Position numbers and translations under genes: made by a program
The notes under the pieces: generated by a model
Databases searched by the model: none
Told to the model about the DNA's origin: nothing
What the model saw: the letters and a program-made list of their open reading frames with translations, nothing else
NCBI RefSeq assembly: GCF_900188035.1
Contig: NZ_FZNN01000017.1
Span: 1 to 64,000, forward strand
Source of the DNA: Puniceibacterium sediminis
GTDB taxonomy: Bacteria; Pseudomonadota; Alphaproteobacteria; Rhodobacterales; Rhodobacteraceae
Direction of reading: 5' to 3'
DNA: 64,000 nt
Shown here: piece after piece, positions 368 through 16,931 of the stretch
Layout: every line of letters begins with the position of its first letter
Position numbering within the stretch: the first letter of the stretch is position 1

Positions 368-895
368 ATGGCTCAGGGTCATGAGTGCGCCGCAGATAGG
401 GAAGACGGCAGCCTGTCGGTTGCCTGCAAGACCCTTGCCGAAACTGCTATACTCGCCGAAGTGATCGCGGAGGTGCTTACGCCCGGCGATGTCATCCTGC
501 TGGACGGGGCGCTGGCGGCGGGCAAGACCACCTTTGTCACCCTGATGTGTCAGGCGCTCGGGTGCGAGGATCAGCCATCCAGCCCGACCTATGCGATCTC
601 GAATATCTACACTTGCCCGGGATTCGAGGTGTTTCACATCGATGCGTACCGCCTGAGCGGTGTCCGGGAATTCTACAACCTCGGGATCGAGGAGTTTTTT
701 CCCGAAGCGGTTGCGCTGATCGAATGGGGCGAACGGGTAAGGGAGGCCTTTCCCGACCACCTGCAGACCAGCATTACCTTTCAGGACCCGGAGTCCGAGG
801 CGCGGGTCTATACTTTCAACGCTGAGGGCAGCCGCTGGGAGACGGGGATCACGGACCTTGCCCGGCGATTGTCCAAAAAGGGGCTGACCAAATGA
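368..895 (+). CDS. tsaE: tRNA t6A biosynthesis ATPase TsaE
   Basis: TsaE is the ATPase that resets the TsaB-TsaD complex during synthesis of N6-threonylcarbamoyladenosine on ANN-decoding tRNAs. The 175-residue product has the P-loop GALAAGKTT (residues 48-56), the family signature SPTYAISNIY (72-81), HIDAYRLS (90-97) and IEW (118-120), all in family order. I chose the ATG at 368 because GGGAGA lies about 8 bases upstream; the frame stays open further upstream but lacks family similarity. The stop overlaps the start of tsaB by 4 bases (ATGA), so the two are probably translationally coupled. The P-loop has Ala where most family members have Gly (LGAGKTT), a mild divergence. Confidence 0.9.
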   Translation: MAQGHECAADREDGSLSVACKTLAETAILAEVIAEVLTPGDVILLDGALAAGKTTFVTLMCQALGCEDQPSSPTYAISNIYTCPGFEVFHIDAYRLSGVREFYNLGIEEFFPEAVALIEWGERVREAFPDHLQTSITFQDPESEARVYTFNAEGSRWETGITDLARRLSKKGLTK

Positions 896-1539
896 GGCTG
901 ATCATTCAGACGTCTTCTGCCGCCTTTGGGCTGGGTCTTCTGTCAGAGGATGGCGCCCTCCTGCACGAGATCAACGCAAGCGACAGGAATACGCAGTCTA
1001 GGAACCTTGGCGATCTGTTTGAGAGGTTGATGGCGGCAGCTGGTTGCGAACTTGCCGACATCGGCGAGATCTGCGTTGATCTGGGCCCTGGCGGGCTGTC
1101 TTCGACCCGCGCAGGGGTGAGTTTCGCCAATGCTCTGGCCTTTGGCAGTGCGACCGGGCTGTCGGGCGTTTCGGCGCTTGAGCTGCTGATGCTAGAGGCG
1201 CGCAAGACCTGTGATCTGCCGATTTGCAGCATGCGCCCGGCGCAGGGCGGGCTCGTCTTTTGGGCGTTTTTCCGACAGGGGCAGCTTGAGCAATCCGGCT
1301 GCGATCAGCCCCAGGATGCCCTTGGGCCACTGATTGCGGGCCATGGAGAGATTGCAGTCGTGGGGCCGCTGGCGCGGCTTCGGCTTGATCCGCAGTTGGT
1401 AGACGGACTGCAGCTGCTGGACATCGACCCGCCTGCGCTTGACAACTTTGCGCGTGCCACGCGCCGCGCCCCGTCGCGTGTGGGCGGTGTTGCGGTGCTG
1501 GAACCGATCACTTCTGCCGAAGGTATCGCGCTGGTTTGA
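892..1539 (+). CDS. tsaB: TsaB-like t6A complex subunit (divergent)
   Basis: This ASKHA-fold protein of 215 residues resembles TsaB, the inactive partner that scaffolds TsaD and TsaE. IIQTSSAAFGLGLL at the N-terminus fits the family phosphate-binding start, and DLGPGGLSSTRAGVSFANAL (residues 64-83) matches the family segment GPGSFTGLR. A SALELL segment follows, as in other TsaB proteins. Overall sequence is divergent and the C-terminal half is weakly recognisable. Context supports the call: it overlaps tsaE by 4 bases and is followed by tsaC and tsaD. There is no RimI acetyltransferase gene next to it, unlike many tsaB loci. Confidence 0.78.
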   Translation: MRLIIQTSSAAFGLGLLSEDGALLHEINASDRNTQSRNLGDLFERLMAAAGCELADIGEICVDLGPGGLSSTRAGVSFANALAFGSATGLSGVSALELLMLEARKTCDLPICSMRPAQGGLVFWAFFRQGQLEQSGCDQPQDALGPLIAGHGEIAVVGPLARLRLDPQLVDGLQLLDIDPPALDNFARATRRAPSRVGGVAVLEPITSAEGIALV

Positions 1540-1685
1540 CTGGCACATGGGGGACGCAGGAATTGAGTTGCGTGGGTACCGGCGGGCCAGTACGACCCGG
1601 TCACCGTTTGCAACGGTTGCCCTATGTCCTGCGGATCCCTAATTCTCTCTGCGACGGGGCATGAGATGCTGAAGGATGAAATACC

Positions 1686-2309
1686 ATGACCGATGCGAGG
1701 GCCACAGCAGGATCGGCCCCCCTTGTGGGGCGCGCTGCCGACTGTCTTGAGGCGGGCGGTGTCGTGTTGCTGCCCACAGATACGGTCTTTGGTCTCGCGG
1801 CGCTGCCGGATAATGCCGCTGCCGTTGCGCGGATATTTACGCTCAAGGACAGGCCGGGACACAAGAACCTTGCGGTGATGGTGTCCAATATCGAACAGCT
1901 GGAGGCCATTGGCGCCAAGGTCACCGATCAGGCGCGCGCGCTGATCGATTCGCCTTTCTGCCCCGGGCCACTGACCCTTGCCGTTGGTCTGCACGAAACG
2001 GGCAGGGCGGATTGGCTGCGTGGACGGGAAGAACTGGCTTTCCGGATGCCTGATGATGCCTTTCTACTGGAGCTGATCGACCGCACTGGTCCGCTGCTCG
2101 TCACCAGCGCGAACCGATCCGGGATGGGGACGCTCGGCAATGCCGCCGCTGCCGCCGCGCAGCTTACCGGCCATCCAGACATGGTGATCGAGGGGCGCGA
2201 ATGTGGCGCGATGCCATCGACGCTGGTCAACTGTTGCCGGGTGCCGCCGGTCATCGAACGGGTTGGCGTGATCCCCCCGGACGCGCTTGCGGGATATCTG
2301 GGTTCATGA
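1686..2309 (+). CDS. tsaC: L-threonylcarbamoyladenylate synthase (TsaC/Sua5 family)
   Basis: TsaC/Sua5 makes threonylcarbamoyl-AMP from threonine, bicarbonate and ATP, the first step of t6A formation. The 207-residue protein is a single YrdC domain: GGVVLLPTDTVFGLAA (24-39), the basic signature IFTLKDRPGHKNLAVMV (50-66), CPGPLTL (91-97) and TSANRSG (140-146). It has the short TsaC length, without the C-terminal Sua5 domain. AAGGATGA lies about 8 bases before the ATG. A gap of 146 bases separates it from tsaB; I found no gene there, although a frame ending at 1689 could encode a peptide starting at 1624. Its stop overlaps the tsaD start (ATGA). Confidence 0.9.
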   Translation: MTDARATAGSAPLVGRAADCLEAGGVVLLPTDTVFGLAALPDNAAAVARIFTLKDRPGHKNLAVMVSNIEQLEAIGAKVTDQARALIDSPFCPGPLTLAVGLHETGRADWLRGREELAFRMPDDAFLLELIDRTGPLLVTSANRSGMGTLGNAAAAAAQLTGHPDMVIEGRECGAMPSTLVNCCRVPPVIERVGVIPPDALAGYLGS

Positions 2310-3304
2310 GCGGGGCTGACCTTATCCTCGGGATCGAGACGTCCTGCGATGACACTTCGGTTGCGCTGGTGGATCGCGGGGGGCGGGTGATTGCCTGCGA
2401 AACCGTGTCGCAATTCGACATCCATGCCGAATTCGGCGGGGTTTTTCCCGAACTCGCCAGCCGTGCCCACCTGGAGGCGGTGTTGCCTACGGTCGACAAG
2501 GTACTGAAAGCCATCGATTCCGACACGGGGCGACTGCGGGCTATTGGTGTCACACGCGGGCCGGGGCTGATCGGATCGCTGATCGTGGGGATGAACACGG
2601 CGCAGGCGCTGGGGCTGGCCTGGGGCAAGCCGGTGTTCGGCGTCAATCACCTGCGCGGCCATCTGCGCAGCCCTGATCTTGACGAAAAGCGGATCACCTA
2701 TCCGGCGCTGCTGCTGCTGGTATCGGGCGGGCATACATTGCTGTGCCATATGACAAGCACGACCGAGATTACGGTTCTGGGCACCACCCGTGACGATTCA
2801 GTGGGCGAGACCTATGACAAGGTGGCGCGGATGCTGGACCTTGGCATGCCGGGCGGTCCTGCGCTGGACCGGTTGGCGCGGGCAGGGCGGGCGGTACACC
2901 GCTTTCCACGCCCAATGATCCGCGAAGGGTATGAGTTTTCGTTCTCGGGGCTGAAATCCAGCGTGGCGCGGATGCTGGAAAAGGACCCGGATGTGGACCG
3001 CGCGGATGTGGCTGCGTCATTTGTGGCGGCCTGCCTTGATGTGCTGGGCACCAAGGTGCGCCGTGCGCTTGGGGAATATGAGGCAAAGTCACTGGTCGTG
3101 GTGGGCGGAGTCGCCGCCAGCCCACAGATCCGTGACCTTGTGGGTGAGATCTGTGCCAAAACCGGCGTACAGCCGTGTCTGCCGCCGCTGAAATGGGCGA
3201 CGGACAATGCCGCGATGATCGCACTGGCGACCTGGGACTATGTCGACCGATCAGAACCGACGGATATGCGGACGGTGCCCAGCATGTCGCTGGCGGCCTG
3301 GTAA
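2306..3304 (+). CDS. tsaD: tRNA threonylcarbamoyltransferase TsaD
   Basis: TsaD transfers the threonylcarbamoyl group to A37 of tRNA. The 332-residue protein is complete: GIETSCDDT (9-17), metal ligands H115 and H119 in NHLRGH, LVSGGHT (138-144), GETYDKVARML (167-177), FSFSGLKS (211-218), VVVGGVAAS (264-272), and TDNAAM with D300 as the third metal ligand. The ATG overlaps the tsaC stop by 4 bases. By eye, the wording around NHLRGH and ASRAHLEAVLPT is closer to actinobacterial TsaD than to E. coli TsaD, but this is an impression and not an alignment. A 10-bp stem follows the stop codon. Confidence 0.93.
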   Translation: MSGADLILGIETSCDDTSVALVDRGGRVIACETVSQFDIHAEFGGVFPELASRAHLEAVLPTVDKVLKAIDSDTGRLRAIGVTRGPGLIGSLIVGMNTAQALGLAWGKPVFGVNHLRGHLRSPDLDEKRITYPALLLLVSGGHTLLCHMTSTTEITVLGTTRDDSVGETYDKVARMLDLGMPGGPALDRLARAGRAVHRFPRPMIREGYEFSFSGLKSSVARMLEKDPDVDRADVAASFVAACLDVLGTKVRRALGEYEAKSLVVVGGVAASPQIRDLVGEICAKTGVQPCLPPLKWATDNAAMIALATWDYVDRSEPTDMRTVPSMSLAAW

Positions 3305-3458: not shown

Positions 3459-4484
3459 ATGACAGACACGCTTCCCCGATTACAAACCTACAAGATCGCG
3501 GACTTTCCCCTGCAGTCGGGCGATGTCCTGCCGGAGGCGACGCTTGCTTATCGAACCTACGGGACGCTGAATGCCGACCGTTCGAACGCCATCATCTATC
3601 CGACCTCTTACGGGGTCGTCGATGCGGATGTCGCGTGGTTGATCGGGGCGGGGCGGATCCTAGACCCGACGCGGTATTTTATCGTCGCCGTCAACATGTT
3701 CGGCAACGGGGCCTCGTCTTCGCCCAGCACCATGCAGCGGGACCCGGTGACGGGGCGGTTTGCGCGTTTCAGCCATGTGGATAACGTAACGGCCCAGCAT
3801 CGGCTGATCACCGACCACTTGGGGATTGATCGGCTGGCGCTGGCCTATGGCTGGTCCATGGGGGCGCAGCAGGCGCTGCACTGGGGCGCGCTGTTCCCCG
3901 ACGCGGTGGCGCGGATCTTTACCATCTGCGGTACTGCAAAGACGTCGGTACACAACTGGGTGTTTCTCGATTCCCTGCGGGCGACGCTGATCACGGACCC
4001 GGCGTGGGACGGGCAGAAATTCACCGCGCATCCGGAACGTGGGCTAAGTGCCTTTGGCCGGGTCTATGCCGGATGGGCGCTGTCGCAGGCGTTCTACCGC
4101 GAAAGGGTGTTCGAAAAACTCGGTTACAGCGATGTTGCCGCCTATCTGTCAGCCACTTGGGACAAGGCGTTTCTGCACCGCGATCCGCACAACCTGTTGT
4201 CGCTGATTGATACATGGCAGTGCAGCGATATCAGCGCCAATGATCGCTTTGGTGGTGATATGGACGCGGCCCTTGGGGCGATTACCGCGCGTGTGGTTCA
4301 TATGGCAGCCAGTACGGATCTTTATTTCCGCGCCCGCGACATCCGGGCCGAGGCCGCGCGCATCCTCAATGGCCATTACGCAGAGATGACCACCGTCTGG
4401 GGGCACCGCGGTGGCAATCCACAGCAAAGCCCCGCCGACGAGGTGTTCTTGCGTAAGGCCGTGGAAGGTCTGCTCGGCACTTGA
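3459..4484 (+). CDS. MetX-like alpha/beta hydrolase (homoserine O-acyltransferase family)
   Basis: This 341-residue protein has the MetX-family alpha/beta-hydrolase fold. The nucleophile elbow is GWSMGAQQ with S133; the other triad candidates are D287 (in AASTDLYF) and H316 (in WGHRGGNP). True MetX proteins usually carry GGSLGGMQ at the elbow and are somewhat longer, so this belongs to a side branch that may act on another acyl ester. The ATG is preceded by GGACAGGAA. A classical MetA gene lies at 42684-43625, so a role in methionine synthesis is not required. The substrate is unknown. It sits 154 bases after tsaD, beyond a hairpin, so it is probably transcribed separately. Confidence 0.75.
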   Translation: MTDTLPRLQTYKIADFPLQSGDVLPEATLAYRTYGTLNADRSNAIIYPTSYGVVDADVAWLIGAGRILDPTRYFIVAVNMFGNGASSSPSTMQRDPVTGRFARFSHVDNVTAQHRLITDHLGIDRLALAYGWSMGAQQALHWGALFPDAVARIFTICGTAKTSVHNWVFLDSLRATLITDPAWDGQKFTAHPERGLSAFGRVYAGWALSQAFYRERVFEKLGYSDVAAYLSATWDKAFLHRDPHNLLSLIDTWQCSDISANDRFGGDMDAALGAITARVVHMAASTDLYFRARDIRAEAARILNGHYAEMTTVWGHRGGNPQQSPADEVFLRKAVEGLLGT

Positions 4485-6974: not shown

Positions 6975-9617
6975 ATGGAACTTTTCTTTCTTCTCCTGCT
7001 GATCCTCATCATGGCGACAGCACTTGGCTCTGGCTATCCGGTGGCATTCGCCCTGCCGGGATCGGCCATCATCACGGTCCTGCTGGCAGCGGGATCCGGT
7101 TACCTGTTCACGGGCAGCACCGATGCGTTTTTTGAATCCGGCGGCCCGTCGCAATGGCTGAGCGCGGGGGTGACAAACCTTCGGGGAGTCTATTGGGAAC
7201 CTGAACGCGATACGCTGATCGCCATTCCTCTGTTCATTTTCATGGGGATCATGCTGCAGCGGTCGAAGATCGCCGAAGACCTTCTGGTCACCATGGCGCA
7301 ACTTTTCGGTCCAATTCCGGGCGGCCTTGGCATTTCGGTCGTCGTTGTGGGCGCCTTGCTGGCCGCCACCACCGGGATCGTTGGGGCGACCGTGGTCGCC
7401 ATGGGCCTGATTTCCCTGCCCGCGATGATGCGCAACGGCTATGCCAACCCGCTTTCGTCGGGGATCATCGCCGCCTCTGGCACGCTGGGGCAGATCATCC
7501 CGCCCTCCATCGTTCTGATCATCCTCGCCGACCAGCTTGCTTCGGCGACGGATCAGGCGGGGCAGGCCCGTCAGTCGCTGTACAAGGCAGTCACGGGCGA
7601 GATCGTGATGCCGTCGGAATTCGCGGTCGTGTCGACCAGTGCCGGTAACATGTTCCTGGGCGCATTGGTGCCGGGTATGCTGTTGGTGGGGCTCTACATT
7701 CTGTTCATTTTGGGTGTTGCCATCCTGCGGCCGAAATATGCGCCTGCAGTGCCTTATGAGGGCAAGTATGACTTCCGCTTTGCCGGTCAGGTGTTCCTTG
7801 CCATGGTGCCGCCGCTGGCGCTGATCATTCTTGTGCTTGGCTCGATCATCGCCGGTATCGCTACGGTGAACCAGGCCGGTGCCATTGGTGCCGTTGGCGC
7901 GATGGTCATGGCCGGCTACCGGCTGCATCCGGGTGGCAGGCTGCGCTATCTTCCTGCTGCGCTGGCGCTGCTGGGTTTGTTGATGCTCACCTTCGTGCTG
8001 GCCAATTTCAACACCAACATCCAGAATGTCCAGTCAGACCGCGATGTCCTGGGCATTCAATTGGCAAGCTTCGGTGTGATCCTGATCGTCGTTTCCATCG
8101 CCTGGAGCGGATACCGCGCCTACAAGACTGAGGACGCCCTGACCGGTGTCATGGTCGAGACGGCCAAGACGACCAGCCTTGTCTTTATCATCCTTCTGGG
8201 TGCGGCGATGCTGACCGCTGCCTTTCGTGCCTTTGGGGGCGAAGAACTGGTAAAGCATTTCCTCGAAGGGTTGCCCGGCGGCTTCTGGACCAAGTTCATC
8301 ATCGTCATGGGCGTTATCTTTGTCCTCGGCTTTTTTCTCGACTTTATCGAGATCGCCGTGGTCGTCGTTCCCATCGTTGCGCCAATCCTGCTGGCCGACC
8401 CCGAGGCAAACGTGAGCGCCGTCTGGCTGGGCGTGATGGTTGGTTTGAACATCCAGACGTCATTCCTCACTCCGCCGTTTGGATTCGCGCTGTTCTATCT
8501 ACGTGGTGTGGCCCCGGCGGCTGTGCGTACAATCCAGATCTACAAGGGCGTGGTTGCTTTCATTGGCCTGCAGTTGCTCGCGCTGGTCATCGTCGCGGCC
8601 TATCCGCCGCTGGTGAACTATCTGCCCACGCGTTCGTCGCTGACCTCAGAAACTGCGCCGCCACCGATCAATCCGGCGCTGCAGTTCTGTGTCGAGAACT
8701 ACGTCGCGCAACAATTCGACCAGAACGGCGATGCAATCCGCGACGCAATCGACCGTGCCGCCGCGTTGGATATTTCCTATCTGCCCAAGGGACTGGCCAA
8801 AGACTTTGCCGGCGGCATCGAAAAGGCGCAGGAGGCGATCCCGCTGATGCAAGAGATCGAGGCGTTGAAGGTACGCCTGGAGGAAGGTGCCGTTGAGTAT
8901 CGGCCCGAGCATACGGTCGTGCGCGGATTGGAGAGCGATGCCAGACGGATTGATTCCACGCTTGAGGAGTTGAAGCTTCGCATCACTCGGGGTTTTGGCG
9001 ATACCGAAGCACTGAAGGCGCGCGTCGAAAAGCTTGAGGCACGCAAGGCGGCGCTGATGGCGCAGATCCCCGAAAGCTGGGCTGACAATCAGGCAGCCTA
9101 CGGCAAGATCACCGCTGATGACCGGAAAACGCGCAACATCTACCGCCGCACTGTCGATCAGGCCTATGAGCCGGTTGTGGAGCTGAGGCAGATCATCGCT
9201 GCGGCTGGTGCATTGAGCGATCTGAAAGCGCCGATTGATGCGTTGGCGGCTGATGTCATGTCCATGGATGGCGATACCGCGGATGAACGGTTCAAGGAGG
9301 TCGAGCGTATGGTGGGCGATGTGGCAGGTGCGGGCGATATTCGTAGTCTGCTGTCTGACGCGCGGCGCGAGATCGACAGTCGCTCGCCTGATCCCCAGGA
9401 GGCGGCCAATCTGGTCGCCGAGGCGCAGGCGCTGCTTGTCAGCGAAATGGAATGGCGCAGCCGCGCCGAGCGCGAACTATTGCCGGAAATTCGCAAGTAT
9501 GACCTTGCGATCCAGGGGACCATCGGCCTGCGCCAGCAACCGCGCCTGCCGCGTGAACAGGCGCTGTTCGTCGCCTCGTGTAGTTCGGTCCACCGCGATA
9601 TTTCGCTGAACTTCTGA
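6975..9617 (+). CDS. dctM: TRAP transporter large permease with long C-terminal extension
   Basis: This is the transport subunit of the TRAP system. Residues 1 to about 555 are hydrophobic and carry DctM family segments such as LIAIPLFIFMGIMLQ, GATVVAMGLISLPAMM, GIIAASGTLGQIIPPSI and FFLDFIEIAVVVVPI. DctM usually has about 430 residues; this protein has 880. After the last membrane segment, about residue 560 to the end is soluble, charged and helical, with heptad-like stretches around 625-700 that suggest coiled coil, and several Arg/Glu-rich blocks. The frame is open throughout with no sign of frameshift. The extension presumably lies at the cytoplasmic or periplasmic face; its role is unknown. 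Confidence 0.88.
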   Translation: MELFFLLLLILIMATALGSGYPVAFALPGSAIITVLLAAGSGYLFTGSTDAFFESGGPSQWLSAGVTNLRGVYWEPERDTLIAIPLFIFMGIMLQRSKIAEDLLVTMAQLFGPIPGGLGISVVVVGALLAATTGIVGATVVAMGLISLPAMMRNGYANPLSSGIIAASGTLGQIIPPSIVLIILADQLASATDQAGQARQSLYKAVTGEIVMPSEFAVVSTSAGNMFLGALVPGMLLVGLYILFILGVAILRPKYAPAVPYEGKYDFRFAGQVFLAMVPPLALIILVLGSIIAGIATVNQAGAIGAVGAMVMAGYRLHPGGRLRYLPAALALLGLLMLTFVLANFNTNIQNVQSDRDVLGIQLASFGVILIVVSIAWSGYRAYKTEDALTGVMVETAKTTSLVFIILLGAAMLTAAFRAFGGEELVKHFLEGLPGGFWTKFIIVMGVIFVLGFFLDFIEIAVVVVPIVAPILLADPEANVSAVWLGVMVGLNIQTSFLTPPFGFALFYLRGVAPAAVRTIQIYKGVVAFIGLQLLALVIVAAYPPLVNYLPTRSSLTSETAPPPINPALQFCVENYVAQQFDQNGDAIRDAIDRAAALDISYLPKGLAKDFAGGIEKAQEAIPLMQEIEALKVRLEEGAVEYRPEHTVVRGLESDARRIDSTLEELKLRITRGFGDTEALKARVEKLEARKAALMAQIPESWADNQAAYGKITADDRKTRNIYRRTVDQAYEPVVELRQIIAAAGALSDLKAPIDALAADVMSMDGDTADERFKEVERMVGDVAGAGDIRSLLSDARREIDSRSPDPQEAANLVAEAQALLVSEMEWRSRAERELLPEIRKYDLAIQGTIGLRQQPRLPREQALFVASCSSVHRDISLNF

Positions 9618-16748: not shown

Positions 16749-16825
16749 GCGGTTGTAGCTCAGTTGGTTAGAGTACCGGCCTGTCACGCCGGGGGTCGCG
16801 GGTTCGAGTCCCGTCAACCGCGCCA
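16749..16825 (+). tRNA. tRNA-Asp (GTC), copy 1
   Basis: The 77-base gene folds as a cloverleaf: acceptor GCGGTTG with CAACCGC, D-loop AGCTCAGTTGGTTAGAGT, anticodon loop CTGTCAC with anticodon GTC, T arm GCGGG-TTCGAGT-CCCGT, and an encoded CCA end (16823-16825). It reads GAY codons. A second identical gene follows 29 bases later. Confidence 0.97.
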
Positions 16826-16854
16826 TCACTGCCCTTGTTCTGCCGTTGCGTTGC

Positions 16855-16931
16855 GCGGTTGTAGCTCAGTTGGTTAGAGTACCGGCCTGTCACGCCGGGG
16901 GTCGCGGGTTCGAGTCCCGTCAACCGCGCCA
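16855..16931 (+). tRNA. tRNA-Asp (GTC), copy 2
   Basis: This copy is identical to the first tRNA-Asp over all 77 bases, including the encoded CCA. The two are surely co-transcribed from the promoter at 16688-16716. The 29-base spacer is unrelated to either copy, so it is a gene duplication and not part of a longer repeat. Confidence 0.97.

Follow-up and report, generated by a model that had tools for sequence, protein, structure and literature searches.

We conclude that the sole pathway for threonylcarbamoyladenosine (t6A) synthesis in the marine bacterium Puniceibacterium sediminis (Rhodobacteraceae) was very probably gained horizontally, as a single tsaE-tsaB-tsaC-tsaD operon that displaced the scattered native genes. 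The operon occupies positions 368-3304 of the window, by which we mean the whole stretch of DNA analysed here (64,000 nt; positions 1 to 64,000 of contig NZ_FZNN01000017.1, assembly GCF_900188035.1). The modification occurs universally, and the enzymes that make it belong to the small group of proteins present in almost all organisms. One would therefore not expect a single genus to have replaced the whole pathway; moreover, essential machines built of several proteins are generally considered difficult to exchange. We regard the evidence as solid that a transferable operon displaced, as a xenologue, an entire essential transfer RNA (tRNA)-modification pathway.

All four genes are on the forward strand. 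The first, tsaE (368-895; 175 aa), encodes the ATPase subunit of the t6A transferase complex (PF02367, 4.6e-32; TIGR00150, 93 bits against a cut-off of 60.1), and is followed by tsaB (892-1539; 215 aa), which encodes the dimerisation subunit (PF00814, 2.1e-11; TIGR03725, 77.1 against 69.3 bits). A spacer of 146 bp (1540-1685) leads to tsaC (1686-2309; 207 aa), encoding a short, single-domain threonylcarbamoyl-AMP synthase without the SUA5 domain (PF01300, Sua5_yciO_yrdC, 3.8e-39; TIGR00057, 124 against 123.2 bits), and then to tsaD (2306-3304; 332 aa), encoding the threonylcarbamoyl transferase (TsaD Pfam family, 1.1e-80; TIGR03723, 364.2 against 296.1 bits). All four proteins thus exceed their NCBIfam equivalog cut-offs, TsaC by a very narrow margin. 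Four-base ATGA overlaps join tsaE to tsaB (892-895) and tsaC to tsaD (2306-2309). Since the window begins at the start of its contig, which is 105 kb long, only 367 bp are visible upstream of tsaE.

A first-pass annotation, made from the sequence alone, had described four tsa genes in order on one strand with two 4-base overlaps, and the coordinates and the Pfam and NCBIfam matches confirm that description. It had also called TsaB strongly diverged. Indeed, the window TsaB has a median identity of 24% to the TsaBs of other operon loci; its fold is nonetheless that of YeaZ/TsaB in an AlphaFold2 model with a predicted local distance difference test score (pLDDT) of 92, for which the top PDB matches are YeaZ/TsaB chains (2gem, E 1.6e-14, template modelling score 0.71). 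The further statement that TsaC, TsaD and TsaE keep their catalytic motifs was upheld by alignment of the operon copies. In TsaD, H115, H119 and D300 are invariant in all 81 copies; we take the HxxxH motif to be the metal site and the conserved Asp to belong to the active site. The TsaE Walker A motif (G....GKT) is present in 71 of 71 copies, and the K.R and SAN motifs of TsaC are kept in 77-78 of 78. A Thr precedes SAN in every one of the 78 TsaC copies when the aligned column is read, and in 76 when the first SAN is found by regular expression. By our own reading of the motif, this column probably corresponds to Thr138/Pro143 of an earlier study (PMC10321239).

The annotation had left open whether the cluster is a second, acquired set with a special job or simply the sole set of the lineage. 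Searches of the P. sediminis genome (G000 in our numbering; 4.64 Mb, 69 contigs, 99.83% complete, 0.05% contaminated) returned one full TsaD, with TsaB as a match of the same Pfam family, while the sole PF01300 match was the operon tsaC and the sole PF02367 match the operon tsaE. Genome-wide family searches for TsaD, TsaC and TsaE thus found no second set, and bear out the sole-set alternative for this genome. Because the set is not a second one, a special tRNA pool or another substrate is without ground. The same holds in other carriers. None of seven further carriers in the family (G001, G004 and five others) has a second TsaD, and each has exactly one PF01300 match; six have one full PF02367 match, and the seventh (G247; 75% complete, contig cut) has none. 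We extended the TsaD census to 49 carrier genomes spanning many phyla, drawn from 50 of the 80 operon loci described below, with L091 left out. None has a second TsaD above the cut-off, although a weak match below it (20.3 bits, another frame) was present in one. Three of the 49 repeat earlier genomes, as judged by coordinates, giving 54 distinct carriers in total; many of these are draft genomes or metagenome-assembled genomes (MAGs), in which a native copy may be unassembled case by case. Since the operon is the only set in each genome, it would have to make t6A if the cell does, and its chemistry is best read, from family membership and motifs, as that of canonical t6A synthesis, with a special job unsupported.

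The operon divides the genus. Among 60 relatives of P. sediminis, two members of Puniceibacterium (G001 and G004) have tsaB adjoining tsaD, as in the window, whereas in two others (G002 and G003) the two genes are far apart, as they are in all other genomes with both matches; the closest non-operon pair among the matches listed is about 47 kb apart. TsaD identity to the window copy splits in the same way, at 90% (G001) and 80% (G004) for the operon copies versus 40-42% for the native proteins of G002 and G003. Puniceibacterium confluentis is a further operon carrier. The arrangement is rare in the family: with the window TsaD as query, six of the 394 genomes sampled from the family, at about one per genus and with the window's genome among them, match at E <= 1e-90. 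Each of six non-carriers that we searched has a longer Sua5-type protein of 315-365 aa, and in all six a Pro stands before SAN, versus the Thr of operon TsaC. Displacement therefore also converts the enzyme type from Sua5 to TsaC, because non-carriers have the long Sua5 and carriers the short TsaC. Five of the 60 relatives (G024, G026, G032, G046 and G054) yielded no full TsaD, even G024, whose completeness is put at 95%; gaps in the assemblies or a different TsaD replacement could possibly account for these.

Alphaproteobacterial tsaD is commonly found within a TsaD-GpsA-YciI-EVE operon next to haem genes, according to the accessible sections of a previous study (PMC7641849). This operon is the native tsaD locus of the family: HemY-HemX-HemD and TsaD-GpsA-YciI-EVE are intact in G002, G003 and G007. 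We used gpsA as the anchor for the site, having dropped hemC, which is not adjacent in this family. In P. sediminis, G004, G073 and G287, HemY-HemX-HemD and GpsA-YciI-EVE are retained and tsaD is gone. With G233, from which tsaD has gone too, the site is vacant in five of the seven carriers searched, and tblastn at E <= 0.1 found no trace of native TsaD in any of the five. In P. sediminis, about 158 bp now separate hemD from gpsA; a sequence upstream of gpsA that might have been left over from the 3' end of tsaD was not significant, with 187 of 1000 shuffles scoring as high. Unlike the published operon (PMC7641849, accessible sections), the five vacant loci have lost tsaD while keeping GpsA and EVE, with YciI in four of the five. 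GpsA-YciI-EVE thus remains once tsaD has gone (L223:7660-9316; L224-L226), and its persistence makes an obligatory coupling of EVE to TsaD less likely. Puniceibacterium antarcticum (G001) has only a 42% gpsA paralogue, and more of the native locus may be lost in G001 and G221. A second site tells a similar story. The neighbours of native tsaE in G002, G003 and G007 are a PAS-domain gene on one side and a gene for an APH-family kinase on the other; in G287 and G004 these neighbours are kept, 40 bp and 122 bp apart respectively, with no trace of tsaE.

Phylogenetic analysis places the operon proteins apart from native ones. In a TsaD tree of 76 rows and 339 columns, 44 of the 80 loci and the window together supplied 45 operon rows, which form one clade with support of 100/100 and a stem of 0.95, and all 31 native sequences (13 alphaproteobacterial, 10 from Bacteroidota and 8 others) fall outside it. 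Three sub-clades can be distinguished: an actinobacterial one (98/87); a Bacteroidota-rich one with Caulobacter ginsengisoli at its base (96/92); and a weakly supported alphaproteobacterial one (85/73). TsaD of Roseibium denhamense, a member of the Stappiaceae, lies inside the Puniceibacterium/Pararhodobacter group (100/99). Operon TsaC rows are likewise separated (100/99) from native Sua5 and from a second actinobacterial TsaC clade, and operon TsaE rows form a group with support of 100/100 in a tree made without a Collinsella row of branch length 4.47. The expectation of the first-pass annotation that trees of an acquired set would place it outside Alphaproteobacteria was thus borne out for TsaD, TsaC and TsaE, in the sense that these stand apart from the native alphaproteobacterial versions. 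Its impression that TsaD looks actinobacterial was not: the window TsaD is about equally distant from native TsaDs of Actinomycetota (42-47%, 3 sequences), Bacteroidota (42-50%, 10 sequences) and Alphaproteobacteria (40-46%, 15 sequences including two from Sphingomonadales). Nor does the TsaD tree support an actinobacterial source, since the copies from Actinomycetota make up just one of several sub-clades. Pairwise distances for TsaE, TsaB and TsaC correlate with those for TsaD (r 0.82, 0.90 and 0.75, respectively) across those loci in which every one of the four genes was scored (68 of 81); correlations among the four proteins range from r 0.75 to 0.90, and the highest of 999 permutations gave 0.14. 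Hence, the four genes travel together.

To describe the spread of the operon, we aligned eight operon TsaDs and used the alignment to scan 84,980 species genomes; this gave 150 relatives, and the best 80 were kept. The scan patterns (TRDDSVGE and W[AS]TDN[AG]AM) favour this clade, so wider relatives are undercounted. Isolates among the best 80 belong to Puniceibacterium, Roseibium, Yoonia, Celeribacter, Pacificibacter, Caulobacter, Lewinella, Micromonospora, Labedaea and Actinomycetospora; many of the other loci are from MAGs. The operon was seen in Alphaproteobacteria, Bacteroidota and Actinomycetota, and in one MAG each labelled Chromatiaceae and Anaerolineales, which may be binning errors. 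It is scarce in the phylum of Lewinella cohaerens too: one of 395 Bacteroidota genomes has the operon type, namely the genome on which the search was centred, and the next-best matches have E values of 1.8e-79 or worse and identities of at most 52%. All four genes were scored in the order E-B-C-D on one strand in 67 of the 80 loci. Eight of the remaining 13 are cut at or near contig ends, two (L142 and L169) are cases of open reading frame (ORF) calling, and three appear to be real exceptions, including L140, in which tsaE and tsaB are absent from the 2.8 kb upstream. Four-base overlaps occur at the E/B junction in 42 of 68 loci, at B/C (where the window has its 146-bp spacer) in 28 of 69, and at C/D in 34 of 77.

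Some operons carry additional genes. In some Bacteroidota, an extra TsaC/YrdC-like gene lies between tsaB and tsaC (L124:1407-2162, with a PF01300 match of 1e-20; L166:1464-2252; L130:4621-5346), and in L124 and L166 it is followed by a gene for a small protein that is membrane-bound by appearance. Actinobacterial operons have a second TsaC paralogue nearby (L137:3361-4146, L155:3545-4213, L169:3031-3675 and L142:3300-4193).

The unit of transfer looks like the operon alone, because we found no flanking family shared beyond lineages, no transposase or integrase in the flanks sampled, and no operon-type copy on a plasmid, phage or viral contig. No gene family is common to the flanks beyond individual lineages; the largest occurs in 13 of 80 loci, mainly in Celeribacter and Pacificibacter. 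A small sample of 28 flanking ORFs from seven loci, annotated with Pfam, contained no transposase or integrase and consisted of ordinary genes, and PADLOC, run on a small sample of ten flanking ORFs, gave only weak ZorB matches, to an OmpA-domain protein. A link to defence or biosynthetic clusters as the driver is thus unsupported by the ordinary genes in these flanks. Plasmid records gave no TsaB match and 64 TsaD records, and phage records gave 23, all below 60% identity in both cases; viral contigs gave five loci at 42-46% identity. No operon-type copy was found in any of these sets, from which records near the window's genome may be missing. Two Sphingomonadales plasmid TsaDs (46% and 42%) were rejected as candidates, being of the native type and beside hemC and gpsA. 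Operon GC (guanine-plus-cytosine) content is close to that of the flanks in most of 24 loci, whose values run from 0.34 to 0.76; some loci (L120 and L128) deviate from their flanks by up to about 0.1, in either direction. In P. antarcticum the operon is at 0.64 and the flanks at 0.66 and 0.60. In the window, the operon is adjoined by a gene for a MetX-like hydrolase (3459-4484; PRK07581 subfamily, 441.6 bits), as it is in L035 and L036, whereas the operon neighbours of P. confluentis (L091) scanned with Pfam are different. Farther along the window are an ORF of 880 aa (6975-9617), which by eye reads as a TRAP-transporter large permease whose C-terminal extension is unusually long, and two tandem tRNA-Asp(gtc) genes (16749-16931), the sole tRNAs detected there by ARAGORN.

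The first-pass annotation had named two findings that together would refute its proposal: no other tsa genes in the genome, and trees grouping all four proteins with their alphaproteobacterial orthologues. The first was found and the second was not, and this combination leads to displacement, an outcome that the annotation had not listed. Ordinary alphaproteobacterial genes, inherited vertically and clustered by chance, would fit the membership of all four proteins in bona fide Tsa families and the match in GC content between operon and flanks in most loci, but TsaD, TsaC and TsaE fall into clades separate from the genus's own native versions, and the native tsaD site is vacant in P. sediminis itself; we give this explanation the least credence of all. 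A specialised set, with a special tRNA pool or some other molecule as its substrate, might explain the diverged TsaB and the unusual compactness of the operon, and TsaC- and TsaD-like folds do serve other carbamoylations, such as those of TobZ and HypF (PMC10321239, accessible sections). Nonetheless, no other tsaD, tsaC or tsaE exists in the genome although t6A is universal, the motifs of TsaD, TsaE and TsaC are kept across operon copies, and the flanking genes are ordinary, so that such specialisation seems hardly credible. Ancient paralogy, in which both t6A sets were present in an old ancestor and descended vertically, one being retained in each lineage, draws on the depth of the operon clade and on sub-clades that partly follow phyla. 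However, we would expect little from it: none of the 54 carriers has both sets, the distribution is rare and patchy down to a single genus, and Roseibium denhamense and Caulobacter ginsengisoli sit in the tree with the Puniceibacterium/Pararhodobacter and Bacteroidota-rich groups, respectively. We consider it very improbable.

Several observations weigh against displacement by a horizontally acquired operon. The vacant tsaD site of G233 has a 932-bp gap and no YciI match, and in G001 and G221 no gpsA orthologue was found, making the site unreadable. The tsaE site is vacant in both of the two readable carriers, the stretches from G073 and G233 being without the neighbourhood. Moreover, the site evidence covers tsaD and tsaE, the native tsaB and sua5 sites not having been located, and the trees cover TsaD, TsaC and TsaE. 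Outgroups are few in the TsaC and TsaE trees, and with the Collinsella row included, operon TsaE does not fall on one side of a branch. Two of the apparent exceptions to gene order break up the unit, L148 being without tsaC beside the operon and L165 being split, with tsaB on another contig. Lastly, no donor was identified, and no transfer is recent enough to reveal the edge of an element; none of the three main sub-clades is the majority type of its phylum in the two draws made.

Clusters of this kind have been seen before. The 2013 SyntTax paper described a ygjD-yeaZ-yjeE-rimN cluster in Verrucosispora maris and Microlunatus phosphovorus and suggested horizontal gene transfer (PMC3571937, here and below as far as its accessible sections go). 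As in the operon described here, all four t6A genes are together in a conserved cluster with variable surroundings, and just as those genomes have two or three paralogues of rimN (tsaC), the actinobacterial loci in our set have an extra TsaC by the operon. We infer that the V. maris and M. phosphovorus clusters belong to the present TsaD clade. Nonetheless, that work concerned two actinobacteria only and described operon or fused arrangements as restricted to Gram-positives, whereas the operon that we describe occurs in many Gram-negatives, where it is the only set and where, at the sites that could be read, native tsaD and tsaE are gone. The tsaE-tsaB-rimI-tsaD operons of Gram-positives (Figure 6 of PMC3571937) share the order tsaE-tsaB...tsaD with the present operon, in which tsaC takes the position of rimI; the present TsaD is, however, only 42-47% identical to the three actinobacterial native TsaDs that we compared. 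In the accessible sections of PMC10321239, the distribution of tsaC/sua5 is described as patchy, with Sua5 and TsaC exchanged across large distances and both rarely found in one organism. That study is confined to TsaC/Sua5, and reads the transfers of this enzyme as an indication that it can do without particular partners; here, by contrast, the multi-protein part (TsaB, TsaD and TsaE) moves, and is replaced together with TsaC. We found no report of displacement of a whole t6A pathway in the titles and abstracts of openly licensed PMC literature, and the accessible text of PMC9654439, outside its reference list, does not mention horizontal transfer, operons or clusters, displacement, fusion or gene order.

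We propose that the operon could succeed because all of its subunits would arrive together on one transcript, so that the incoming machine would work without native partners. TsaC would convert threonine, bicarbonate and ATP to threonylcarbamoyl-AMP, and TsaD, with TsaB and TsaE, would transfer the threonylcarbamoyl group to A37 of ANN-decoding tRNAs, as expected from their families. Native tsaB, tsaD, tsaE and sua5 would become redundant, and would then be deleted. A more far-reaching possibility, which we hold to be unlikely, is that the operon is an invasive, self-sufficient t6A module that repeatedly enters several phyla and is incompatible with the resident machine, each entry ending in clean deletion of the native genes. 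The incompatibility might come from poisonous mixed complexes of TsaB, TsaD and TsaE, or the module might offer escape from something that attacks the resident enzymes. If true, the operon would be an exception, tested by nature, to the rule that essential machines of several subunits are resistant to transfer.

The chemistry of the operon is probably ordinary, and the point of interest is its evolutionary behaviour. Since the GpsA-YciI-EVE genes remain when tsaD leaves, the result is relevant to the link that has been proposed between them and TsaD. It also provides natural experiments, in the form of sister species that have the native or the foreign machine and the long Sua5 or the short TsaC. 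These could be used to ask why TsaC and Sua5 exclude each other, whether TsaB, TsaD and TsaE of one type can work with those of the other, and whether it is being bundled into one operon that lets an essential complex move between phyla.

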